DNA from: Owenia fusiformis
Taxonomy: Eukaryota > Annelida > Polychaeta > Sabellida > Oweniidae
Reading direction: 5' to 3'
DNA: 64,000 nucleotides
Assembly (NCBI GenBank): GCA_903813345.2
Contig: CAIIXF020000010.1
Location: forward strand, 34,959,425-35,023,424
Part shown: one piece after another, positions 38,297 through 53,960 of the stretch
Layout: the number at the start of each line of letters is the position of its first letter
How positions within the stretch are numbered: the first letter of the stretch is position 1
The notes under the pieces: model-generated
What the model saw: only the letters and a program-made list of their open reading frames with translations
What the model was told of the DNA's origin: nothing
The model's database searches: none
Program-made: the position numbers and the translations under genes

Positions 38297-39466
38297 ATGG
38301 GTGCTTGTTATAGTAAATGTAACAGTAGTAGTCATAGTGAAAGTAACAGTAGTGGTCATAGTGAAAGTAACAGTAGTAGTCATAGTGAAATAGTTCCAGA
38401 ATTATTTTTTATAGCACCATTACCGGTAATCAAGAACACTCTCCCTACAACAGAAAAACGATCATCCCATCATGTAACTGAAATACACAACTTGGCTAAA
38501 CTAAAACACAGTCAAGAAGACATAGACAGCCATGTAAAATACATCAAGACTCGTATTATACAACCAATCCTTGATAAATTCAACAAAATGCAACCAGCAT
38601 TAGCAGTGGATGATGTACTACTGAATGGGAGCATGTCGAACAAAAGTAAAATAGAATTTCCCAATGAGATTGATTTTGTTCTCCCGATGGCTCTCTCCAG
38701 ATATGTAGTGATCTCAGAAAGAGGTAATGGAGGTTGGTTAGGTGTAAAGTTACCTGATGATGAACCTCACACTGATTTACTAAATCTCACTAAGAAACAT
38801 CAAGAGTTAATACAAAATGGCAATTCACTAAATTCAAAATATTTAACTGAGAGTATTATACATAAAACTGTTGCAGAGTGTTTATCACAACTACACACTG
38901 AGGGTGTACTGATCTATAAGGGACAAGGATCTCTGAGGTATAAGCCTGTAGAATCATCTCAGCTGGAAAAGAATGAAGTCATCCTGCATAATAAACCACA
39001 TGGTCCCTGCATCCAACTCAGGGTGTGGGGACCAAAGTGTGTGACAGACATAGACCTGGCATTTTGTCTGAAAATACTCAATATACCTCAGCTACCTGAT
39101 ACACTAGACAGTTTCTATGTGGGATTGCCTATGGGATATGGATGGGTGAAATCATTCTATGAGAAACCAGACTTGAGAGCATCCAGGATAGATGAACATC
39201 ACAGGATTATACTGATGGGACTGAAATATATTCTATCAAGGTATGAGAAAATATTTGACAAAACTGCTTTACATTCCCATGCATTGTATACATTAGTAAG
39301 ATACCACCAGGAGCAATGTGACAGCAGGGCAGGTAAACCTACTCTTGGAAAATGTTACTACGACATCTCATACAATCTATGTAAGCTGAGGCTAAGATCT
39401 GTACAGAATACAACACAGGTTAAAGTATGTGATGAATGGCTTGAAGATCTCTTTGATAAAGACTGT

Positions 39467-39468
<2 letters not shown>
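38297..39468 (+). pseudogene. Mab-21/cGAS-like protein gene, copy 1, 5' part, broken by a LINE
   Basis: About 391 codons of a Mab-21/cGAS-like nucleotidyltransferase-fold protein, paralogous to the gene at 52500-53960. I place the start at 38297 (GTCATGGG, good context). An in-frame ATG five codons upstream would add MYIIV, and an out-of-frame ATG lies at 38278. From 38297 the N-terminus is MGACYSKC, a likely N-myristoylation signal with Cys4 and Cys8 as possible palmitoylation sites. Then come three ~8-residue NSSSHSES units encoded by a 24-bp repeat. The catalytic pattern is present: NGS, about 11 residues, then NEIDF, and later VTDIDLAF for the third acid. The reading frame is intact until the poly-T of the LINE at 39469, where it would run into Phe codons. 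The 3' part lies at 43959-44309. Confidence 0.88.
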
Positions 39469-39499
<31 letters not shown>

Positions 39500-39670
39500 T
39501 ATTAAATTAATCATTTGTACAAAGAATACATACAATAATACAGTGTAAGTGGCTGTGCTTTTAGCATTATTAGCCACGTTCTACAATTACAATATACAAT
39601 GTATTCAATCAATAATATTTGATTAAAATAAATGAGATACAATAAGATAAAAGTTGTCTTGTGGAGGATT

Positions 39671-42600
39671 TCAGACATTTACACATCGCTCGAAGAAAAT
39701 GGCACTGCACTTTAAAACAATCAGATTCTCAGCTCTACATAATGTTTTATCACCATTGAGGATCAGAGAAAGTTTATCACGTTGTGTCTTATATTTACGG
39801 GAGTATTGTATATTCATATTTTTTAGTTGGTTTTCTAATTCAGTCCAGAATGTTAATCTCAAGTTACATCGAAAAATCACATGGCTGGTTGTTTCACTGT
39901 TAATACCACATGAGCATATGGGGGAATTTACATTGGTAAAGTTATGCGAGTAAAGGTGAGCCTTGAAAATGAAATCACATCGTACTCTGTTAAATATAAT
40001 TTCTTGGTTTCTTGAGATGGACAGTTCTGATGAGTTAATGACAGTTTCGTTAAAAATATTTCTTTTTAGGCTTGATTTAAATATGCTTAAGCTAGATGAG
40101 TTCTTTATATCAGATGGCAGTAGATTCCATTCTGATATTGTTTTTGAGATACAAGATCTTTCATAAAATTTGGATTTAACTGGTAAAATATAGTCAAGTT
40201 GGTGTCTTAGTACATGTGTTTGATTTCTTTTTAGTGGTTCAAATATCTCAGTAACATAAGAAGGCAGCAAATTGTTGTGAGCTCTATACATAAAGGTAGC
40301 TCTATGATATTGACGTCTATTTGAGAGTGTGGGCCAATTTAAAGTATTCAACACTTTTGTGGTTGATGTTCCATGCATGGCACCTGAACAAATAAGTGCA
40401 GCTTTATAGTAAAGGCGGTCTAAAAGTTGTAGTTTTGTCAAATTTGCACATCCGTAAAGAATATCACAATAATCAAAGAGTGGCAAAATAAAAGACTTAA
40501 AAATTGTTTCAAGGTGTTTTCCACTTATTTTCTTACTGAAGACTTTCAACGGATTTATGAGTTTATCTATTCTTGCTACAAGTTCAGTAATGTGATAGTC
40601 AAAAGTGAGATTTTTGTCCAAAATCAACCCCAAGTGCTTGTGATTGTTTACTCTTGGTAACTTGTCATTACCAAGGGAAAGATCTGGGGTCAAAATTTCG
40701 CGCTTTCTTGGATTAAAAAAAGTCATATCTTTACTTTTACTAGCTTTGAAGTTTAATTTCCATGTATTTGACCATAAGAGAATTTTATTTAGATCCTCTT
40801 GTAATTCATTATTCTTAGCAGCTGCTGTTTCAGCTGTGAAGGATTGGTAAAGTGACGTGTCGTCTGCATATATAAAACATTTGGTATTTAAGTTATCAGG
40901 TAGATCATTGATATAAATTAAGAACAGGAGGGGGCCTAATATGGAGCCTTGAGGTACTCCTGCGTTTATATGGTTCATCTCAGATAGTTCAGACTCATGG
41001 CCATCCAATACAACTTTTACTTGTCTATTTGATAGGTAAGATTTCATTAATTCTATGATGTTATGACCAAAACCATACATTTTCAGTTTTTTTAATAGTA
41101 GCCCATGGGGCATTGAATCAAAGGCGGCCGAAATGTCAAGATAAATCCCCCTTACATTGGCCCCATTTTCAATTTCATTAGTTATGACATCAATTATACT
41201 TAAAAGCTGTGCCTGGGTGCTGTGACCTGGCAAAAAGCCACTTTGGAGGTTATAAAATAAATTGTTCACAATGAGATGGTCAAAAAGTCTTTTGAAGATT
41301 ACGCGTTCTGCAACTTTAGATATACAGCTCAGAAGAGTGATAGGTCTATAATTTTTTACATCTGTTTTGTCTTTACTTTTGTGAATTGCTACAACGTGGC
41401 CTATCTTCCAAGAATGGGGGTATTTATTAAGAATGAACATTTTGTTTAATAATTTTGATAATATGGGTGAAAGTGATGGTGCTGCCATTTTAAGCATTCT
41501 ATTGCTTAACATGTCAGGGCCAGTAGCTTTATTTGTATCTAACCCAAGTAAAATGCTATAAACCTCTCTATCATTAGTAGAGAGTAGGTCAAAAGATTGA
41601 TCAGTTCTTGGAATAAAAGTTTCATTTCCTTCTTGATAGTTTATATGATATTTGTCAATGAAATGAGACAGTAGCAAGTTTGCTTTGTCATGGCTATCAG
41701 TGTAACTGTTACCTCTAGCATCACAAAGAAGTGGTATTTTACTATTTTTACATTTTCCCAAAAGCCTACTTACAATTGACCAGTATCCTTTGCTTCCATA
41801 TCTCTGATTACTTAATTTATAGTACAACCTTGATTCCATTGCCTCTTTGGCCTCACGAATAGCATCATTAACAAGATTACATTGATCAGTATATTTCTTA
41901 AAGTATTTGTCATCATGTGTTTTCCTGTACTTACGATGTAATTTATTTCTTTTATTTATCAAGGTTTTGATATCGCTTGTAAACCATGGCTTATCCGTAG
42001 GTTTAATTTCAATATCAGAGTTTGGAATAAGATCTGTAAAAATTGCAAGTAACCCTCTCGAAAAATTGCTTACTATGTCATCTAAATCATTACTACTATC
42101 TATCAAGTGATCAAAGTCTGCTGCTCTAACTGAATTGTTAATTAGATTTATATCTGCTTGGTCATATTTCCAAATTTTTCTTGAATAAGGACGGTTTTTA
42201 AGATTTTTAAGAAAACACTCCGTGTTTATTGAGCAATGGTCAGTGTTACCAATAGGAGGAGAAACATAAGAATTTGTTATAATATCAGGGCTATTTGAAA
42301 TGAGAAGATCGATACATGATCTACTGGTATTTGTTATTCGCGTTGGTTCATCTATAAGCTGAAAAAGTCCAAGTTCTTCAATGTGTTCAGATAATTTTTT
42401 TCCTGTGAAATTTTCATTGTCTAAGGCCCACCATTGTTTACTCCTTGCATTAAAATCTCCATTAATAAAAATAGCTTCTGGGTTAGAGTCAAGTGCCATA
42501 TTGCATGAGTTTGAGAACCTAGTGCAGAATTCATTTGCCTCATTTTGAGTTTGCGATGGTGACCTATAATAAATTGCATATAGATATGACTTATAGTTAA

Positions 42601-43366
42601 TGCTCAATTCAATCCATAAGGAGTCACCCTGATCATTCATAAGGTCATTTCTAATTTTAAAAGGGATATCATCTTTAACATATATCAATAGGCCTCGATT
42701 TTTATTCGAGTATACATGACAATGACCATCTATAGAATAATCAGAAGAAACTGTCAAATCAGTTAGATTTCCAACCTCACAAAGTCCAATAATGTCATTT
42801 CCATTGATCTGTATTCTATCTTTAAGTGCTTCAAATCTGGCATTTACATTTGCACTTATACTGTTTATATTTGAGAATAAAATCTTTGTGAGCTTAAAAT
42901 GATTTGTAGGTCCTGGATTCTGATGAACATCATTACTCAGTAAGAGAATAGCTTGAACAGTATTAGGAATATAACATAAAATAGCACAGAATGGAATGAA
43001 CAATAAAACTATACTAGCAAACATCTTCATTATGTAAAATGTACCAAAATGTTTGTGATTGCTATGAATATAGACAATTGTGCCCATGAATGTTAAACCA
43101 TGGATGACAACTAAAAATGAACTAATGCATCCAAATAAAATCTTACAAGAATTCAAAGTGATTTGCCTGCCTGAATCTGCTATGTAGAGCTCAAAACCAC
43201 ATATCAATGTAAGGCAAATGTACAATGGAATCCAAGAGAATGAGTTAAAATAGTCGAGTATGCATTTGCTGCCATTTTTGACTTCTCTCTTATTAACTGA
43301 TATAAAACACTTTCTACTGTTGTGCATTCCAACACTCATCCTCCAGGCAGTGACACTTATGCCCAT
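39671..43366 (-). CDS. LINE polyprotein: hydrophobic N-terminus, 2A-like motif, APE endonuclease, reverse transcriptase
   Basis: A 1231-residue protein that copies the element by target-primed reverse transcription. Residues ~41-62, 74-101 and 110-133 are hydrophobic, membrane-segment-like. Residues 146-153 read DVHQNPGP, a 2A-like ribosome-skipping motif with His where Glu is usual. The endonuclease follows (~160-380) with Glu197 in LCEV, GDFNA at 303-307 and TDH at 375-377. The RT (~650-900) has YLDISAAFD (Asp744), GVPQGSILGP and FIYADD at 831-836. A C-terminal CSCG...H...C pattern (~1170-1190) resembles the zinc-binding tail of these elements. If the 2A acts, a ~152-residue membrane peptide would be released from the enzyme. 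All catalytic residues are present, so it may be active. Confidence 0.93.
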   Translation of the reverse strand: MGISVTAWRMSVGMHNSRKCFISVNKREVKNGSKCILDYFNSFSWIPLYICLTLICGFELYIADSGRQITLNSCKILFGCISSFLVVIHGLTFMGTIVYIHSNHKHFGTFYIMKMFASIVLLFIPFCAILCYIPNTVQAILLLSNDVHQNPGPTNHFKLTKILFSNINSISANVNARFEALKDRIQINGNDIIGLCEVGNLTDLTVSSDYSIDGHCHVYSNKNRGLLIYVKDDIPFKIRNDLMNDQGDSLWIELSINYKSYLYAIYYRSPSQTQNEANEFCTRFSNSCNMALDSNPEAIFINGDFNARSKQWWALDNENFTGKKLSEHIEELGLFQLIDEPTRITNTSRSCIDLLISNSPDIITNSYVSPPIGNTDHCSINTECFLKNLKNRPYSRKIWKYDQADINLINNSVRAADFDHLIDSSNDLDDIVSNFSRGLLAIFTDLIPNSDIEIKPTDKPWFTSDIKTLINKRNKLHRKYRKTHDDKYFKKYTDQCNLVNDAIREAKEAMESRLYYKLSNQRYGSKGYWSIVSRLLGKCKNSKIPLLCDARGNSYTDSHDKANLLLSHFIDKYHINYQEGNETFIPRTDQSFDLLSTNDREVYSILLGLDTNKATGPDMLSNRMLKMAAPSLSPILSKLLNKMFILNKYPHSWKIGHVVAIHKSKDKTDVKNYRPITLLSCISKVAERVIFKRLFDHLIVNNLFYNLQSGFLPGHSTQAQLLSIIDVITNEIENGANVRGIYLDISAAFDSMPHGLLLKKLKMYGFGHNIIELMKSYLSNRQVKVVLDGHESELSEMNHINAGVPQGSILGPLLFLIYINDLPDNLNTKCFIYADDTSLYQSFTAETAAAKNNELQEDLNKILLWSNTWKLNFKASKSKDMTFFNPRKREILTPDLSLGNDKLPRVNNHKHLGLILDKNLTFDYHITELVARIDKLINPLKVFSKKISGKHLETIFKSFILPLFDYCDILYGCANLTKLQLLDRLYYKAALICSGAMHGTSTTKVLNTLNWPTLSNRRQYHRATFMYRAHNNLLPSYVTEIFEPLKRNQTHVLRHQLDYILPVKSKFYERSCISKTISEWNLLPSDIKNSSSLSIFKSSLKRNIFNETVINSSELSISRNQEIIFNRVRCDFIFKAHLYSHNFTNVNSPICSCGINSETTSHVIFRCNLRLTFWTELENQLKNMNIQYSRKYKTQRDKLSLILNGDKTLCRAENLIVLKCSAIFFERCVNV

Positions 43367-43947
43367 TTTAATACTAATTCATAGATGCAATATAAGAAAA
43401 GAAACCGTTCTGTTTACAAATAAATTATCTGATGTGTCATGTCTGGTGAACACTTGCTATATGAAGTACTGTTCCCTTGATTCCTTATAGTAGCTTATTG
43501 AATATGTAATAAAAGTAGCTAAATACAGCGATAAGAAAGTAAGGGTTTCACACCAATTAAGTTGAAGAGTTTCTCCACAAAACAACCTTTATTTTAAAAT
43601 ATTTAGTTAAAATTGATTAAAGTCAAGATATAAAACAAATGTAGAAAAGTACAGTTATAGTACTTGACTTTTACTGTAAGTGTTTGGCTCTGAAAACGGC
43701 AAACTCAATGCTCTATCTGTTCAAAGGCAAAAACTTTTGAAAATATGTACAGAGCAACTCATTTCAGGTGAGCAGTGTTTCAGTAAAGTGAAATGCCCCC
43801 ATTAGCGCTACTGATTGGCGCAATGTAAGGTCATGACCTTGGATCTATGCCAAAACAGTGTTTACATTGAGAGTGATATATACCCGCACATAAGTTTCAC
43901 TGTAACATAAATGTATGGTTTGTTTCCAAGTATATATCTTCTCAGAT
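43367..43947 (-). promoter_or_regulatory. Probable 5' UTR and internal promoter region of the LINE
   Basis: This is the ~580 bp between the coding start and the 5' target duplication. It has no coding potential. Such elements carry an internal promoter in this region; no specific motif was identified. Confidence 0.5.
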
Positions 43948-43958
43948 AAGACTGTCCT

Positions 43959-44309
43959 GATATGTATATCTATAGATCAGGTAAATATGTTGGTCGATCC
44001 CAAACAAAAATATTCCTACTTGCTGTGTACATCCTACCAGAACTACTGAAATCAACATGTATACGTTTTTTTGAGTTTGACTGTAAATATCTGAAACTGG
44101 TGTTTAAAGAGTGTGAGCTAGAATGCTGGAGACAAATGCTACTCCAGGATCCAGAGATTAAGCTTACATCTAGTCAGAGGGAAGAGATCTCATCTGTAGA
44201 GGATGTGGAGGAATTAAGGAAATATAATTATGGTTATAATTATTCATCTGTGGTTGATACAGAGAGAATTCTGCCAAGACTGAGCCCTGAGATAATCTCA
44301 TTGGAATGA
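43959..44309 (+). pseudogene. Mab-21/cGAS-like protein gene, copy 1, 3' part
   Basis: It continues the reading frame of 38297-39468 beyond the LINE: 116 codons and TGA, with KIFLLAVYILPELLKS, FFEFDCKYLKLVFKECE, TSSQREEISSVEDVEEL and SSVVDTERILPRLSPEI. Similarity to copy 2 holds throughout, with one codon missing. The only visible disabling lesion of the gene is the LINE. Downstream of the TGA, codons matching NYYWSKAQRSLF of the remnant at 56289-56402 are still visible, interrupted by a second stop. Confidence 0.88.
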
Positions 44310-44464
44310 TATGACAGTTATTACTGGAGCAAAGCATAGAGGAGTCTGTTCTTGTGAGTAAATCAATTTCTCTGTCTTTTCTTTCTCCTGTCTACACTTA
44401 TCTCTAAAATATCAACTATTTATGATATTTCAACATCAGATACCTTGATTTGTATAATAATGTC

Positions 44465-44748
44465 TTTTATTCCATAGTTAGCATGATATTCATAGGATAA
44501 CATGTGAAAATAAAAACGGTATTTTTGTAATCAGTGGTAAAATATGATATTTTTGACAAATTTTCACTTAACCATAACATACGTTTTTTTAGCCATGACA
44601 TACGACGTCGTATGCGATGGTTTATGGATTTTTGCTACTTCAGACTCAAAACGAGGCTAAGTGTCAACATCGCCGGATCGTTTGGAAATTCGAATTAAAT
44701 AACTTAATTTCCGACGATTCTGATGATGACTTTAACTATGGAATAAAA
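44465..44748. mobile_element. Small TIR element present only in copy 1
   Basis: TTTTATTCCATAGTTA (44465-44480) is inverted at 44733-44748. Copy 2 at about 56508 lacks this sequence and goes straight from ATAATGTCTT to ATCTCTAAAATATC. A GACGTCGTATGCG stretch lies inside. Boundaries relative to the adjacent palindrome are uncertain. Confidence 0.6.
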
Positions 44749-44752
44749 AGAA

Positions 44753-44888
44753 CATCCTATGATTTACTCGTGATATGATTTTAATCCACTCATGGATATT
44801 GATATCTGCACTCTCTCGCTACGCTCGCTCGTGCAGATATCGTGTCCATTCGTGGATAAAAATCATATCACTCATAAATCATAGGATA
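44753..44888. repeat. Near-perfect palindrome with TCGCTACGCTCGCTC loop
   Basis: The arms CCTATGATTTACTCGTGATA and TATCACTCATAAATCATAGG, and nearer the centre GATATCTGCAC and GTGCAGATATC, pair over about 57 bp each side of a C/G-rich loop. Absent from copy 2. A similar but unrelated-in-arm palindrome is at 62573-62716. Confidence 0.85.
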
Positions 44889-45179
44889 TCCTCTATATCT
44901 CTAAAATATCAACTATTTATGATATTTCAACATCAGATACCTTGATTTGTATAATAATGTCTTATCTCTAAAATATCAACTATTTATGATATTTCAACAT
45001 CAGATCTTAATCTTTTGTAATATAGGTTGCTTTGGTATCAGTGATCTTACATCAAACACTATACCTATTGCTTTGTGTTCACAGCAAAGATATGACAGCA
45101 ACTGAAAAACTGTTTTCTGAATGTACATAACCCATCAAAACAATACAACAGACGCAAGTCAACGTAACCCCAACTTCCC

Positions 45180-45302
45180 AAATTCCACCCTATCCTTCTT
45201 GGGCCCACTTTTTTGTTTAAGGGGCCCCAAAACAAAAAATTTTCGCAGACCTGAAATTTGCCCCCCCCTTGTTGATTCCCAGATTCGACCCTGTGCTAGT
45301 GT
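45180..45302. mobile_element. MITE half, shared by both duplicates
   Basis: GGGCCCACTTTTTTGTTTAA, CAGACCTGAAATTTG, a C run and GTTGATTCCCAGATTCGACC match the right half of 60309-60640. The same fragment is at 56796-56903, so it predates the segmental duplication. Confidence 0.55.
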
Positions 45303-45499
45303 ACCACACAGAAAATAAACAAGGCATTAATAGGCAAAATGTCACCACCTTCCAAATGCTGAGCACCAACCACTTAACACCATCTACAAAAAAGTTGTGC
45401 TGGTGACATAAAAAATTATTTACAATGTTATGCATTATCTGATCCATGCCCGGTGATCGTACAAAAATGATGGAGGGGGGATTAGGCGATTTCTGCATC

Positions 45500-46301
45500 A
45501 AAACTCAACAAATTTCGAAAATTTACAACTGAATTGCCAAATGAATAGGCGCAGTGCATGGCAAAATATAAATATGTTAGGTCATTTAGTGTTTTTTTTT
45601 GAACTGATGCCCTTCTAAGATATGAGATCTATTAAAAAAGGCGCATCATCACCAACGTGCAAACGTCAATGTTTTTGATATAAATCGGGCAACAATGGTC
45701 TACACGACCTGTAATGAATAAGTATAAGGGACGTTATTATCACAATGGAGGGGGGATCACGTGTATATAAGACATGATAAGAGGTGCTACTTGAATTTAT
45801 TCTTATGACTCCAAATTTTCCCAGTTTTCATTCTCCAGAGATATAATATCAAGTTTCTTACTAGGGTACTGAGTTTAGTTTTTTCAAATACACGAGTTCT
45901 TGTGAATTTGTTCCATCGTAAAGATATATAATCCCCCTCCATCCGATCCCCCCCCTCCATCCCAAATTAATTTATTTCGATTATTTTTTGTATAACGCAA
46001 GGAAACTAACTTTAATAAAAAGTGAGCAATGTCATAAGTATTGTGATAATAACGTCCCTTATACCTATTTATTACAGGTCGTGTAGACCATTGTTGCCCA
46101 ATTTATAGCAAAAACATTGACTTTTGCACGTTGGTGATGATGCGCCTTTTTTTAATAGATCTCATATCTTAGAAGGGTATCAGTTAAAAAAAAAATACTA
46201 GATGACCTAACATATTTTGCTATGCACTGCGCCTATTAGTTTGGCAATTCAGTTGTAAGTTTTCTCTTGAAAAAATAAATCTTCCAAATTTGTTGAGTTT
46301 T
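45500..46301. mobile_element. ~0.8-kb element with ~250-bp terminal inverted repeats
   Basis: The left arm (45500-45746, from AAAACTCAACAAATTT) is the inverted counterpart of 46040-46301 (ending AAATTTGTTGAGTTTT), including CGTGTAGACCATTGTTGCCC and AGGCGCATCATCACCAACGT. The ~290-bp centre is non-coding with C/G runs. The paralogous site near 57060-57210 lacks it, although the sequence there is itself different, so the target duplication cannot be read. A non-autonomous foldback-like DNA transposon. Confidence 0.85.
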
Positions 46302-48688
46302 CAAAAATGCTTCAATTAAACCATTGCCTTATTACCTTCATAAAAAATGGCATTTTGATATGGCCCGTTGTCTGAATTCTTATCTATAACAGACTTGTAA
46401 ATGATATTATATATTGATTTGCAATGCACTCGTTTGTCTAGTTTAGTTAAGTACCAAATTTGACAAACTACATGTAGTAATTATGATAAATTGAAAATGA
46501 GTGATAATTCTCTATCTGGGGGTCATTAGCAGAAACTTTGTTAAAAATTTGTAAAGTCCATTGTTCTCTAACTGTGACAGCATTATATCCATGGTTACAA
46601 CAATTGATTTAAGAATGCATAACTTTTCGAAGTAACTGTTAATGACCCCCTGAATAGGCTCCATCTCAATTTTCATGAAACAAAAAATGGACTTTGAAAG
46701 TTTTGACAAATCCTCAAAAGTATCAAACTGTAGACAGTGAACAAAGACTAGTATTTGTAGATACTGTTCATCTCACTGTATGAGAGTATAATGGCAAAAT
46801 GAGCATAAACATTCCGCACTATAACTTTGGGAAAATGAAGTCATCATTTGATAGTGAAAACCTGCTAATGTTTGAATCTTTATTTTGTTCCTTTATTACA
46901 AATGTTTATGACTTTGATAATTGTTTTTAAATTGAAAAATATTAATGTGGTCCAGAAGTGGACTTCAAGTTGTCAAACTTTTGGAGAGAAGTGTAATACT
47001 CTGTACAGGCTAATGTAAATAAATATACACATATATTTTTGTACATAAATGTTTTGAATGTTGTTTGTAATGATTGAACTTAGATCTAATCTAAAGAGAT
47101 TCAGAAATAGAAAATGTAGCATCAGAGCAATGTTATGTTTACGATTTTGGCCAATTCAAAATGGCATGAAGATGATAATGATATCAAATCTAACAACTAT
47201 ACTTGAAAACAGTGTACACAATAACTAAATTGTAACACCTCACTTTTTAACCTCATACTACTGATACACAATACTATTGATGTGAGAGCCATCTTTTTAA
47301 CATTTTTACAGTAAAGCTCCTTTAATTTGTCATATTTTACAACTGAACAACTTATTGAATACTTTGAATGAAATATCAGACATTATTATACAATAAGATC
47401 ACTTCAAAATAAGCACAATAAATTCTGCAGACAAGTTGAGACAATGTATTGAATTGTTTGAAAACAACCCACTCCTTTAAACTTAAAATGTTTCTTTAAA
47501 ACTGGATTGTTTTAAGAGATGGCAGAGTACACTTAGAAGATTGACAAACCTTTTACTTATGAAACAGCCAATCACCTGTTTTAGAGAGTTGACAATTATA
47601 TATATGCCACTGTAATTGAAGTGCTCAAGTTTCAATTCATGGGTGCACCTGGGGGGGGGAGTGCATTGAGTGACTGTGTTGACTAAAGTTGACTACCCAT
47701 CCCACTTTCTCCCCCTGGCCCGCAACCCATAGAGTTTCTAAGATCTCAAGGGGTCAAAAAATGTACATTACCCTTTAAAATCTATCAGAAAGCTGTAAAT
47801 GAATTTCAATTACAAAATAAATTGATTATCTATAAAAGAAAACATATAATCATCACTCCAAGCAGGACTTCACAAATCCATTAACTAAAAATGTCAAAGA
47901 ATTTAAAACGGGCAATGGTTTTATGATTGTCTCTAAGAGACACAATTCAAACGAAACGAAAAATGAAAATTTCAGCCCTTTCCCTCGAGATTTGTGCCTA
48001 TTTTTCATTAGAACAACATTTTTGCCATATTTTCTTTGCACATCTTTTGGGGGCAGAGGTGTAAATAAAAATATTTTTGTAGATAATCAAGAAAACTGGA
48101 ACAATTATCAGAGAAAGGTAATCCATGTAAATATAGATGGCGTTTAAACAAGGCTTGTCCAAAATCTGAAAAAACATCTGTATAGTGCTGCCATCTTTTG
48201 AAAAGCACAAAAACATTTGTGTTTGATAGCAACAAGAACATGTCGTAGATGAAAAACAATGTCTTATAATGCTATAGAGATGGCACATTAGCCTAGAAAC
48301 ATTTAAAAAACACAAATCAACCAAAAAGACATTCTGATGCATTCTAATTATCCTTAACAATGTACTCCCGGGTATATATAAAACTAAAATTATACTGGAT
48401 TAAGTCGGACTGGTGAAAATCATTTGATATTCAACAGAAGCTGACTCAGAATTTTGACTCAGAAATTCAATTCAACTTATACATGGCCAATTAATATTTC
48501 ATTGAACAAATACGGAAATCAACTGATTTAGGAAAAACATGCATTTAAAACCATATATTTTAAGTTACACAAACTCAAACTACATTTGCCATGTATTGCA
48601 TGCTTATGTTCATATTTGACTGTCCTTAGCTACTATATGCCCAACTTAATTTACTTAATTTAGGAAATCTTATCAATAGTGAAGAGTA

Positions 48689-49290
48689 CAGGGTGTCCCA
48701 AAAGTGTGCCCCCCCCTCTAGGCAGACACATTCCAGTATCCTCATAGTATGTGTCATATATCATTTTAAAGCTTATCCAAAGTAACATTGATTTGCCAAG
48801 TATCATGGTTTAACTCCCAAATGGTAAAAAGTTACAGTCATTTTAAAAGTTAGTGTTCACAAAATTTGTCAAAACAAAGTTCAATTTTACACCACATTAC
48901 TAGTCAATGTGTCCCCCCTTGGCCAAGTTAACAGCAGCAATTATTTTCAGATATGACCTTAAAAGCCCTTCAAATAGGGATGTGGAATTTTATAACCCTC
49001 TTAAAACCTGTTAAGGGACTTTAGAAGAGTTTCATTAGAGTTTCTACCCTCATCGTTCTCTTTTTCCAACTCAATATCCCTCCAACCCGAAAAGAATTGC
49101 AGCTGTTAAGATGGCCCCGGAGGACACATTGACTAGTGATTTGGTGTAAAATTGAACTTAATTTTGACAAAACACTAAATTTTGAAATGCCTGTAATCTT
49201 TTTCACATTTGGGAGTTGAACCTTGATACTTGGCGAATCAATGTAACTTTGGATAAGCTTTAAAATGGTATATGACACATACTATGACCT
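48689..49290. mobile_element. ~0.6-kb foldback element
   Basis: TATGTGTCATATATCATTTT, AAAGCTTATCCAAAGTAAC and TTAACTCCCAAATGGTAAAA on the left are inverted in 49180-49285. Both arms contain CCTTGGCCAAGTTAACAGC-like central sequence only once, so the arms are about 200 bp. The left end starts ACAGGGTGTCCCAAAAGTGT, a terminus common to mariner-like elements. It has no counterpart in copy 1. Confidence 0.75.
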
Positions 49291-49346
49291 TTGTGAGATA
49301 TGCAAAACTTATACACTCCCCTCCATAAGTAATATATATCTATATA

Positions 49347-49755
49347 TACACTCCCCTCCATAAGTTTGGCAATAAAAATTCCCCATTGGATCACTCATCA
49401 AAGCCTGTTTAGTTGTTTGTCAATTTAAAAATTCATCTTTGGCACAAATTTTCATATCATTGTTAATTAATGAACAAAACTAAGAATCATACATTGAAAG
49501 GCTATCTACACAGCCAATATAATTCAGCGCTGTTTCCGCATCGCAAAAAAATTGGCGCTGTTCCGGCACCATTTCGGCACCAAAACCTTTCGACACTAAA
49601 ATTTGGAACCGGACTAGTCAGTCTATTTGGTGCCGAAACGGCACCGAAATTTGGCACCAAAACAGCGTCGAAAAGCAGATTGCATTTTGGGGGTGTATGT
49701 TTACTATGCTATCCAATGTACACTTCTGGTTGCCAAACTTATTGAGGAGAGTGTA
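49347..49755. mobile_element. 409-bp TIR element with C/G-rich centre
   Basis: The left TIR TACACTCCCCTCCATAAGTT (49347) pairs with the right end TTATTGAGGAGAGTGTA (49755), about 26 bp with mismatches. The centre (49515-49670) repeats CGGCACC/GGTGCCG motifs, far more G+C than its surroundings. TA-flanked ends suggest Tc1/mariner ancestry. No transposase. Confidence 0.7.
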
Positions 49756-49917
49756 GACATGTTTACTATGTGAGTATTATTAATCAGTCAATCAAAGGCA
49801 CATTTAACCTTCTTAAAAAACCCAAACATGACCACTTTTCGAATAGCATTATGATACAGAATTATTGTTATCTATTCCAAATTCAAATTTCTATTCCATA
49901 TAAAGAAATTATAAACT

Positions 49918-51886
49918 AGACTTTTTAAGATTGCAAGCAATCTCACGGAGGCCCTCTTAGGCATTTTTGACAAATTGAAGGTCAACTAAAGGACAAATAT
50001 CAAATCTGAGGTCAGATGTGAAGTCCTGAGAACTTGTAGATGATTTTCCAAAAAAGATTTTGTCAATTTGAAGCGATTTTAAATTTAACCTTGAAAAATT
50101 ATGAACTCTTATATCTCAAACTGGGACAAAATTCTATTAGATACTCAATTGCTAATATGTGTAGGACCCTTAGAGGAATGTGTATATTTCGACTTCTGAT
50201 TAAAAATATTGGTTTGTAGTCTCGAACTTTGCGAAACTTAGAAAGCACAGTTTGTGACCTAATTTCATGATCTTGACCTTTGACCTTTTTACTTTTTTAG
50301 ACCTCAGTAGGTCTTTTGTGATTAGGCTGACCTAAATTTAAATCCAAAGACTCAATTTGAAAAATCAACTTTTCTTACCTTTGGAAGGTCATTGAAGGTC
50401 AACTAAAGGTCAACGGTCAAATCTTAGGTCAGATATGGACTCCCGGGAACTTGTAGATGATTTTTAAAAAAAATTGGTCAGATTGAAGCAAGTTGAAAAA
50501 TGACCTTTTTTGACCGTTTCTTGACATCAAATATCTCAAAAACGGTAAAAATTTAATGCTGACATATAGTGAACAATTTTTAGAGAATACTAAAATGTAG
50601 TTTCAGTTTAATTCATCGCAAGAAATAATTAAGTATAAGGACAAAGTTGAGAAACTTGAAAAGAATTTAGATTTGACCTAGATTTTGACCTTTGACCTAA
50701 TTTGATAACCGTGACCCTTGACCTTGAAAATTTTACTGTTCTAGAGCTCAGTAGGTCTTTTATGATTAGGCCAACCCTAAATTTGAATCCAAAAACTCAA
50801 TTTGAAAAATCAACTTTTCTGACCTTTCGAAGGTCACTGAAGGTCAACTTAAGGTCAAATGTCAAATCTGAGGTTAAATATGAACTCCTGAGAAGTTGCA
50901 GATGATTTTTAATAAAAAAGTTGGGTGAATTTGAAGCAAGTTAAAATTTGACATATAAACTTTGAAAAAATGACCTTTTTCAGTTTTTGAGCTCTTATAT
51001 CTCAAAACTGGGACAAAATTTTAATAAATTATTTGATTTTTTAAGCACGTTTTTGCAAACTTATCACCACCCTAATAATTTTGCCACACCCATCAATTTT
51101 TATTGAAACTTTTTCACCACTCACTTTTGAAAAATTAGGGAGAACACTGAAATAGTCAACGACTAATACGTGTAGAACCCTTAGAGGAATGTATATCTTG
51201 ACTTTCAATTAAAAATATTGATTTGTAGTCTTATACTATGAGAAACTTAGATAGCACAGTTTGTGACCTAATTTGATGACCTTGACCTTTGACCTTGAAA
51301 TTTTTACTTTTTTAGACCTCAGTAGGCCTTTTGTAATTAGACTGACCTAAATTTGAATCCAAAGACTCAATTTGAAAAATCAACTTTTCTGACCTTTCGA
51401 AGGTCACTGAAGGTCAACTAAGGGTCAAAGGTCAAATCTGAGGTCAGATTTGGACTCCTGGGAACTTGTAGATGATTTTAAAAAAAAAATTTGGACAGGT
51501 TGAAGCAAGTTGAAAAATGACCTTTTTTGACCGTTTTTTGACATCAAATATCTCAAAAACGGTAAAAATTTAATTCTGACATATATTGAACAATTTGTAG
51601 AGAATACTTAAATGTAGTTTCAGTTTAATTCATCGCAAGAAATAATGAAGTATAAGGACAAACTTGAGAAACTTGAAAAAAAACTTAGATTTGACCTAGA
51701 TTTTGACCTTTGACCTTGACCTAGATAAAAAATATTTTTCCCCCTATTCCAGCTGAGGTTCCTAGTAGGAGCATATAGTAAGTAGTTGAAAGCTAGTTGG
51801 AAGTAGGGGAAAAATGCTTTGATAGAATAATAATAAAGAAAAGCTACAAAAGCTATAGGAGGCCCTTTCAGGAGGGTCTCCTAATA
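49918..51886. mobile_element. ~2-kb repeat-rich insertion in copy 2, Helitron-like 3' end
   Basis: Copy 1 has an uninterrupted site near 37345 (AAAGAAATTAAAAAATAAAGCTTAATC). The insertion is made of ~1-kb direct repeats (50242-50690 against 51260-51720, plus a partial at 50700-50900) rich in TGACCTTTGACCT and GAAGGTCAACT. The right end holds a hairpin (GGAGGCCC...GGGTCTCC) followed by CTAA and then T. That matches the hairpin-CTRR-T end of Helitrons. No Rep/helicase coding was seen; the left end is not a clear TC. Confidence 0.5.
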
Positions 51887-52499
51887 AAGCTTAATCTTGG
51901 ATTCAAATAAAAAGATGAAAACATAAACAGTTTATCAAATAACAAATCACTTATAGATAAACCCCATTCTTCTATTGTAATGGATGACATGTAGAGTAGT
52001 TTGTATCTTATCATTAAACATGTATATAAATATATGATCTTATAACATTATGTTCAGATCTATACTCAGAGCTAGGTCATCAATTGTTTAAATGTAACAA
52101 AATTCTAACTTTGTAAGTTCACATGTTAATAAATATGATTATGTAAGCAGTTTATACTTACAGACTTAAAATCATAACTAGTGGAGCAAAACCAAGAAAA
52201 TAATAAATGCATCTCAATCAAAGATATCCTTGCTAAAATGTTGAATAACGGGAGAATAGAAGTTGAATGTAAATACAATTAGTCATCAGAGACAGGCTGA
52301 GATCCAGTTGAAAAATTATATCTCATAGAATAGGATTTGTATTAAGCACATTTCTAATGAAGAACACTATTACTGCACTAAGGAAATCTCAAACTATGTA
52401 CATGTACATACATGTATCATTGCACTAAGGAAATCTCAAACTGTACAAAATTAAGACATTGAATTCTACTTTTATATCACATGGATGTATATTATCGTC

Positions 52500-53960
52500 A
52501 TGGGAGCTTGTTATAGTAAACGTAAAAAACGTAACAGTAGTAGTCATAGTGAAAGTTTATTTCTTACACCATTAATCAAGAACACTCTCACTACAACAGA
52601 AAAACAACGATTATCCCAACATGTAACTAAAATACACAAATTGGCTAAACTGAAACACAGTCAAGAAGACAAAGACAGCCATGTAGAATATATCAGGACT
52701 GAAGTTATACAACCAATCCTTAATAAATTCAACAAAATGCACCCAGCATTAGCAGTGGATGATGCACTACTGAATGGAAGCATGTCAAATAGAAGTAAAA
52801 TAGAATCTCCCAATGAGATTGATTTTGTTCTCCCGATGGCTCTCTCCAGATATGTAGTGATCTCAGATATAGGTTATAGAGGTTGGTTAGATGTAAAGTT
52901 ACCTGATGATTGTCACACTGATTTACTAAATCTCACTGAGGAACATCCAGAGTTAATACAAGATGACAATTCACTACATTCAATATATTTAACTTTGGTT
53001 ATTATACATAAAGCTGTTGCAGAGTGTTTATCTCAACTACACAATGAGGGTGTACTGATCTATAAGGGAGAGGAAAATCTGAGGGATGAACCTGTAGAAT
53101 CATCTAAGCTGGGAAAGAATGAGGTCATACTGCATTATAAACCACATGGTCCATGCATCCAACTCAGGGTATGGAGACCATTGTGTGTTACAGACATAGA
53201 CCTGGCATTCTGTCTGAAAGTACTCAATATACCTCAGCTACCTGATACACTAGACAGTTTCTATATTGGATTGCCTATGAGATATGACTGGAAGAAATCA
53301 TTCTATGAGAAACCAGACTTGCGAGCATCCAGGATAGATGATCATCACATGATTATACTGAGAACACTGAAATATATTCTATCACAGTATGAGAAAACAT
53401 TTCGCAAAACTGCTTTACATTCCCATGCATTGTATACATTAGTAAGATACCACCAGGAGCAATGTGACAGCAGAGCAGGTGAACCATCTCTAGGAAAATG
53501 TTATGATGACATCTCACACAATCTATGTAAGCTGAGGCTAAGATCTGTAGAGAATACAACACAGGTTGAAGTAAGTGATAAATGGCTTGAAGATCTCTTT
53601 GATAAAGACTGTCCTGATATGAATATCTATAAATCAGGTGCTATGGATTTAAGAAGCAGTGAAACAAACATATTCCTACTTGCTGTGTACATCCTACCAG
53701 AACTACTTAAATCAACATGCATAACTTTTTTTGAGTTTGACTGTAAATATCTTGAGCTGGTGTTTAAAGAGTGTGAGTTAGAACACTCGAGACAACGTAT
53801 ACTGCAGTATCCAGAGAGGAAGCTTACATCTAGTCAGAGGGAAGAGATCTCATCTGTAGAGAATGTGGAGGAATTACAGATATATGATTATGCTTTTAAT
53901 TATTCAGTTGAGCTTGATACAGAGAGAATTCTGTCAAGACTGAGGAGGAAAGTGATCTAA
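52500..53960 (+). CDS. Mab-21/cGAS-like protein, N-myristoylation motif, copy 2 (open)
   Basis: A single-exon gene for 486 residues. The start at 52500 (GTCATGGG) is preferred over the in-frame ATG at 52485 because it gives MGACYSKRKKR: Gly2 for myristoylation, Cys4 for palmitoylation and a basic patch, a Src-like membrane anchor. The nucleotidyltransferase-fold core has Gly93-Ser94, Glu106 and Asp108 (NEIDF) and Asp234 (TDIDLAF), placed as the metal-binding triad of cGAS and cGAS-like receptors. A helical C-terminal half (HSHALYTLVRYHQ, LLAVYILPELLKS) is typical of Mab-21 proteins. No cGAS zinc-ribbon motif was seen. Family members sense nucleic acid and make cyclic dinucleotides, or are non-catalytic. 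The last residues (RRKVI) come from rearranged sequence next to the minisatellite, so the native C-terminus is altered. Confidence 0.88.
   Translation: MGACYSKRKKRNSSSHSESLFLTPLIKNTLTTTEKQRLSQHVTKIHKLAKLKHSQEDKDSHVEYIRTEVIQPILNKFNKMHPALAVDDALLNGSMSNRSKIESPNEIDFVLPMALSRYVVISDIGYRGWLDVKLPDDCHTDLLNLTEEHPELIQDDNSLHSIYLTLVIIHKAVAECLSQLHNEGVLIYKGEENLRDEPVESSKLGKNEVILHYKPHGPCIQLRVWRPLCVTDIDLAFCLKVLNIPQLPDTLDSFYIGLPMRYDWKKSFYEKPDLRASRIDDHHMIILRTLKYILSQYEKTFRKTALHSHALYTLVRYHQEQCDSRAGEPSLGKCYDDISHNLCKLRLRSVENTTQVEVSDKWLEDLFDKDCPDMNIYKSGAMDLRSSETNIFLLAVYILPELLKSTCITFFEFDCKYLELVFKECELEHSRQRILQYPERKLTSSQREEISSVENVEELQIYDYAFNYSVELDTERILSRLRRKVI

Follow-up and report, generated by a model that had tools for sequence, protein, structure and literature searches.

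For human OAS2, passages of a published study (PMC13372824) report that N-myristoylation directs the protein to the Golgi, that a G2A exchange abolishes its antiviral effect, and that its enzyme activity in vitro does not require the modification. Animal cGAS-like receptors (cGLRs) have radiated to more than 200 genes in some bivalves, according to passages of a survey preprint (PMC9980059). The present study concerns a gene, here called copy 2, in a window of 64,000 nucleotides of the Owenia fusiformis genome (the whole stretch that was analysed, C10:34959425-35023424; the source genome comprises 498 Mb in 525 contigs). With a probability of roughly 0.55, copy 2 would be an intact gene from a large and rapidly evolving family of Mab-21/cGAS-like nucleotidyltransferases (NTases) and would encode an N-myristoylated, membrane-tethered cGAS-like sensor. 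For the radiated family as a whole, the best reading is that some members are probably N-myristoylated and tethered to membranes.

Copy 2 lies on the plus strand at positions 52500..53960 and consists of an uninterrupted open frame of 486 codons, counted from the heptapeptide MGACYSK, and a stop. N-myristoylation calls for Met followed by Gly, a small residue or Ser/Thr at position 6, and, preferably, Lys at position 7. MGACYSK (52500..52520), with Gly2, Ser6 and Lys7, agrees with this rule, as a sequence-only reading of the window had pointed out; it is the proposed N-myristoylation signal, recurs in paralogues, and contains in Cys4 a possible palmitoylation site. The RKKR patch that follows it (52521..52532) may act as a second, electrostatic membrane signal, and copy 2 additionally carries one NSSSHSES. 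The same reading had both paralogues begin with MGACYSK, which was found to be the case, at 38297 and 52500 on the plus strand, and had rightly noted RKKR in copy 2 as well as an additional Cys and NSSSHSES-type repeats in its neighbour, copy 1. Open frame, start context and motif are read directly from the DNA, as are the triad residues, the recurrence of the motif in the family, and the NMT and STING domain exons described below.

Copies 1 and 2 both have two in-frame ATGs, reading MYIIV-MGACYSK, and translation of copy 2 from the upstream one (MYIIV, 52485..52499) would bury the Gly. This ATG is the first in frame after a stop, so that such a start deserves consideration, but it is very unlikely: by the Kozak preference the context is weak, with T at both -3 and +4, where the second ATG has G, and MYIIV is missing from the relatives L002, L007 and L010, in which the ATGG that corresponds to the second ATG comes first in frame and has a TTATATCA(T/C)C stretch 5' of it. 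The G/G context and these homologous starts make 52500 the likely start of copy 2, and the initial choice of MGACYSK over MYIIV is supported. In the relative L016, the ATG is preceded, at a distance of a few bases, by a polypyrimidine tract with CAG that resembles, by eye, a splice acceptor.

A search of the genome with copy 2 gave 102 matches, copy 2 included, and two sets of loci were drawn from these: the 20 best matches (L001-L020), and 47 regions whose match begins no later than query residue 68 (L021-L067). Matches starting after residue 68 have no N-terminus and were excluded, and an early row, C10:36335979, turned out to be the same gene as L015. Starts could be scored at 63 of the 67 loci (two had no upstream stop and two no Met) under two rules, by which the start was either the earliest ATG that has a purine at -3 or, in all cases, the first ATG. 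MG starts were found at 18/63 loci with the purine rule and at 14/63 with the first-ATG rule; disrupted loci are included in these counts, and dropping L008, L011, L013 and L020 left 17/60 and 14/60, respectively. Control starts were taken from RING genes (first 40 of 150 places, open frame of at least 600, no stop; 37 scorable) and BTB genes (first 40 of 146 places, frame of at least 380, profile start at 4 or before, no stop; 32 scorable), and began with MG in 0/37 and 1/32 cases (1/69 pooled), compared with 22/467 for internal Mets of the family itself. Neither family members nor control genes are statistically independent, and the Fisher p values for the family have to be read with this in mind: 3e-8 (purine rule) and 1e-5 (first-ATG rule) against internal Mets, and 6e-6 and 2e-4 against the 69 pooled controls. 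With both rules alike, loci L021-L067 taken separately showed MG at 11/45, for which p was 1e-4 in comparison with the 69 controls and 3e-5 in comparison with internal Mets.

The residues after MG also resemble those of lipid-anchor signals. MG combined with Ser/Thr6 was seen in 13/63 family starts (9/63 with the first-ATG rule), in 1/467 internal Mets and in 0/69 control starts, and the MG starts included MGACYSK, MGANNSKKK, MGNGCSQKR, MGCSLSK, MGNATSK, MGGICCK, MGGKCCK and MGGTSSK, next to weaker-looking ones such as MGNIIFR and MGNFFAS. Lys/Arg7 was present in 12/18 MG members and 6/45 others, Cys at positions 3-6 in 8/18 and 3/45, and at least two basic residues at positions 7-12 in 10/18 and 5/45. 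The excess of MG starts among paralogues strengthens the lipid-anchor proposal that the sequence-only reading had made. A Mab-21-like cluster at C6:39545000-39790000, from which six loci were fetched, has MGG in L057 (MGGICCK), L060 (MGGIFSS), L062 (MGGKCCK) and L065 (MGGTSSK) and no MG in L063 and L064; L059 (MGGICCK) lies separately at C6:37.68 Mb.

The distribution of MG starts was then viewed on a tree of 64 rows, of which 61 had a scored state. The tree was built with a quick method, its long branches are flagged and its exact branching is not relied on; L023, L026 and L027 were dropped as too short. The MG state required 11 changes, at least nine of them forced by well-supported branches, compared with a mean of about 16 for shuffled states, and so it is clustered yet recurrent. 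It is spread over several clades and is missing from some near relatives, so the part of the initial proposal that spoke of one membrane-tethered class does not stand. Codon 2 is GGA in L001, L002, L004 and L005 and GGT in copy 1; single changes away lie GAA (L006, L007) and GCA (L010), and AAA in L003 is two changes from GGA. The starts of the near relatives L004 and L006, for example, read MGAGSSN and METGSSN.

Such a pattern could arise if MG were incidental: ATGG would be favoured as an initiation context, codon 2 would drift between Gly, Glu, Ala and Lys, the Ser-rich tail would supply Ser6, and a lipid would be absent or immaterial. The GAA, AAA and GCA codons of near relatives are what this explanation predicts, and Ser/Thr6 is also present in 8/11 non-MG members of L001-L020, for which reason Ser6 was rejected as evidence within the clade of copy 2. 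Tests corrected for phylogeny also count on this side, none being significant: among 9 independent pairs, a second signal accompanied MG in a mean of 5.3 pairs and was opposed in 0.4 (median p = 0.07), with 4.2 for and 0.1 opposed for Lys/Arg7 (p = 0.125) and 3.1 for and 0.3 opposed for Ser/Thr/Cys6 (p = 0.25). The direction of the link between MG and a second signal is thus consistent, but once relatedness is corrected for it is not significant and only suggestive. Further points to be held against a lipid anchor are that the starts of L001-L020 were already known when the purine rule was chosen (L021-L067, with 45 scorable loci, were fetched later), that copies 1 and 2 begin MYIIVMG, and L004 and L005 MIMG, when the first ATG is taken, and that of nine loci fetched from the 19 PF03281 places unmatched by copy 2 (L068-L076, kept out of all counts), the seven with a listed Met had none that begins MG. 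Still, an incidental MG is unlikely, given a frequency far above that of the controls and, within L021-L067, Lys/Arg7 in 9/11 MG starts (of the types MGCSLSK, MGGICCK, MGNATSK and MGGTSSK) against 6/34 non-MG starts.

The assignment of copy 2 to the Mab-21/cGAS superfamily, claimed from the start, is supported along two lines. Copies 1 and 2 do not match the Pfam Mab-21 profile (PF03281) at E<=1, nor do 17 close relatives at E<=0.01 (the 17 being the close loci L001-L020 without L011, L013 and L020, omitted from the alignment as broken). Nevertheless, 13 of the 32 PF03281 places in the genome coincide with places matched by copy 2, for example C4:28846369-28847295 (E = 8e-18 for copy 2 and 3.9e-8 for PF03281), and membership is therefore supported transitively, via proteins that do match PF03281. 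A profile of the 17 relatives matched 13 sequences of the Protein Data Bank (PDB) at E<=0.1, all of them cGAS (best E = 7e-4), the similarity being confined to a short piece of the NTase core and a second short stretch, a helical segment. Copy 2 alone gave 14 PDB matches at E<=1, of which 13 were cGAS. No OAS chain was among the PDB matches of copy 2 or of the family profile at these thresholds; with the OAS1_C profile, weak matches to four exon fragments were obtained on C8, and no relative was confirmed when the family profile was run against viral contigs. Apart from the missing Pfam matches, one result speaks against the assignment: the best cGAS match of copy 2 by itself (E = 0.056) ranked below an unrelated hypothetical protein (E = 0.027). 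An AlphaFold2 model of copy 2 made with the window's own sequences alone reached a predicted local distance difference test score (pLDDT) of 34.7 and does not provide a confident fold.

All three elements of the nucleotidyltransferase triad named in the sequence-only reading (GS...ExD...D) were found in copies 1 and 2, the last one as a downstream TDID. In copy 2 they are Gly93-Ser94 (52776..52781), invariant in the 17 aligned sequences; Glu106-x-Asp108 (52815..52823), with Asp108 invariant and Glu106 nearly so; and Asp232-Ile-Asp234 (53193..53201), with both Asp invariant. Across the family, the GS/ExD pattern was present in 58/67 loci and in 16/18 MG loci; the nine loci without it are L011, L023, L026 and L027, which are partial, L005, which has Thr between the two acids, and L030, L033, L059 and L066. 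For the third acidic site, most other loci have TDID, VDID or similar, and a pattern search of the 67 loci turned up just a weak candidate in L064 and none in L062 or L067.

Animal cGLRs were delimited in passages of the survey preprint by h[QT]GS, 8-20 residues, [DE]h[DE]h, 50-90 residues and h[DE]h, together with structural homology in AlphaFold2 models and the production of a cyclic nucleotide in response to a ligand (PMC9980059). The active site of copy 2 reads LNGS, 11 residues, EIDF, and then TDID after about 121-123 residues; because GS is preceded by N and not by Q/T, and because the third acid lies about 122 residues on, beyond the range of 50-90, copy 2 would not be filed as a cGLR under the strict published definition despite its triad residues, though it may work like one. 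Many relatives have R-GS or other residues before GS. The same deviations would fit membrane-tethered proteins that are no enzymes at all, namely scaffolds activating a kinase of the TBK1/IKK-epsilon type, in which the acidic residues are kept for the fold or for nucleotide binding. Shrimp Mab21 proteins offer a parallel: as passages of the study (PMC12928593) report, they bound neither dsDNA nor dsRNA, did not produce cGAMP in response to the ligands that were tried, and acted as activators of IKK-epsilon. A scaffold role for copy 2 is nevertheless rather unlikely, as GS, ExD and D show little or no variation among the 17 close relatives despite ratios of nonsynonymous to synonymous change (dN/dS) of 0.64-0.97 between tandem copies, and a pure scaffold would have no obvious need for them.

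The N-terminal part of copy 1 comprises 391 codons from MGACYSK (38297..39469, plus strand), whose frame runs into poly-T at 39470, the inverted poly-A tail of a long interspersed nuclear element (LINE) on the minus strand (39470..43947). This element lies inside the coding sequence of copy 1, contains an open frame of 1231 amino acids with endonuclease and reverse transcriptase domains (39671..43366, minus strand), and is bracketed by an 11-base direct duplication, AAGACTGTCCT, the target-site duplication, at 39459..39469 and 43948..43958 (both given for the plus strand). The C-terminal coding sequence of copy 1 continues beyond the LINE as a stranded remnant of its last 119 codons (43950..44309, plus strand), and the corresponding site in copy 2 is uninterrupted exon. 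Since the LINE and its duplication interrupt a frame that is unbroken at the same site in copy 2, copy 1 is, on this sequence evidence, a disrupted version of the same gene, broken by a retrotransposon, and the sequence-only reading, which had missed the LINE and treated copy 1 as a working gene, was mistaken on this point. If the open frame of the LINE is a guide, the insertion would be recent. The description of the two genes as a pair is right for the window and incomplete beyond it: a third tandem copy (L002, copy 3) has its MG start (MGANNSKKK) 367 bases past the window end.

It may be asked whether copy 2 itself is a decaying or unexpressed duplicate and the array the debris of gene birth and death. 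Besides the loss of copy 1, the frames of L013 and L020 are cut short and stops occur at other matched places. The dN/dS of copy 2 was 0.93 against copy 3, 0.97 against copy 1 and 0.59 against L010, and that of copy 3 against copy 1 was 0.64; the tandem-copy values also count against a functional sensor and led me to drop dN/dS as proof of function, and those of copy 2 are compatible with fast evolution or weak constraint. Set against decay is the absence of stops from copies 2 and 3, when about 6 would be expected from the 166 changes between them if these were neutral: the simulated probability of zero stops was 0.0005 for 166 changes and 0.024 for 83, should no more than half of them fall on copy 2. 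I therefore regard decay of copy 2 as improbable.

The membrane-tethered sensor that is favoured here would work as follows. The initiator Met of copy 2 would be removed and Gly2 N-myristoylated, Cys4 palmitate and/or RKKR would provide a second membrane contact, and the protein would be held on the membrane through a flexible Ser-rich linker with the NTase domain after it. The cGAS-like domain would then detect a ligand close to membranes and produce a nucleotide messenger for STING; the most likely ligand would be viral nucleic acid at replication sites on endomembranes, as in the case of human OAS2. The lipidation, membrane location, catalysis, ligand, product, pathway and expression of copy 2 are all things that I infer from the DNA. 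NMT_C exons are present at 3 places in the genome, all on C7, and STING-domain exons at 14 places. Exons of the STING ligand-binding domain are clustered at C7:10960518-10982096 and C5:30326204-30330175, which suggests that STING, too, may have been duplicated.

A broader proposal can be made only tentatively: this cGAS-like branch might repeatedly gain and lose a two-signal lipid anchor (myristate with palmitate or a basic patch), so that one radiating family would provide pairs of sensors, one soluble and one bound to membranes, of which the membrane-bound kind would monitor viral replication at membranes in convergence with OAS2. Should some cGAS-like sensors carry a lipid anchor, what they detect could be set by location and not by ligand alone, as for OAS2, and near relatives that differ at Gly2 would amount to a natural experiment on the role of location. 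Among the matches listed from the open-licence literature in PubMed Central (PMC), no title or abstract mentioned a myristoylated Mab-21/cGAS-like protein, most subscription papers being outside this scope.

Some paralogues have features of their own. L003, L004, L006 and L012 have Cys-rich C-terminal extensions that resemble, by eye, zinc knuckles or small zinc fingers (for example CFRCNQLGHKRKLC in L003 and L006) and that copy 2 does not share. L009, a non-MG member, ends in a Cys cluster, LFKCCSLCCVKD, which by eye is possibly another route to palmitoylation, and L015 has an in-frame array of 36-residue Ser-rich repeats ahead of the Mab-21-like domain. Elsewhere in the window, at 577-1794 on the minus strand, lies a repetitive frame rich in Gly, Asn and Gln with an end, WKISGFSACSRTCGGG, that looks by eye like thrombospondin type 1.

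Compared with known systems, copy 2 shares with human cGAS the GS/ExD arrangement and an LKYIL-type helix. It differs from it at the Cys-rich zinc thumb, whose ligands follow H-x5-C-C-x6-C in cGAS: by inspection of the alignments, no Cys cluster is found at the aligned place, before the LKYIL helix. Contacts of cGAS with membranes are made via a disordered basic N-terminus and not via myristate, and the product of OAS enzymes is 2'-5' oligoadenylate.

The shrimp proteins LvMab21-1 to -3 are, like copy 2, invertebrate members of the Mab21 family and are immune proteins, but in contrast to the sensor proposed here they are reported, in passages of their description, as non-enzymatic activators of IKK-epsilon, and 'myristoyl' has 0 occurrences in the main text of that paper (PMC12928593). 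Animal cGLRs, including the bivalve and cnidarian radiations, resemble the family of copy 2 in partial cGAS similarity, the acidic triad, a large radiation and STING in the genome; copy 2 departs from them in the residue before GS and the spacing to the third acid, and in carrying lipid-anchor signals, a word-start search of the preprint's main text giving 0 hits each for 'myristoyl' and 'membrane' (PMC9980059). Human OAS2 (p69/p71) belongs to the OAS family, and its membrane role has a counterpart in copy 2 that is predicted from sequence. What the two would have in common is an NTase-fold innate sensor with a myristoylated Gly after Met, followed in OAS2 by Ser at position 5 in the numbering of the paper, as given in its passages on the protein (PMC13372824), and by this analogy myristoylated OAS2 would be a close functional precedent for copy 2, and the clearest one.

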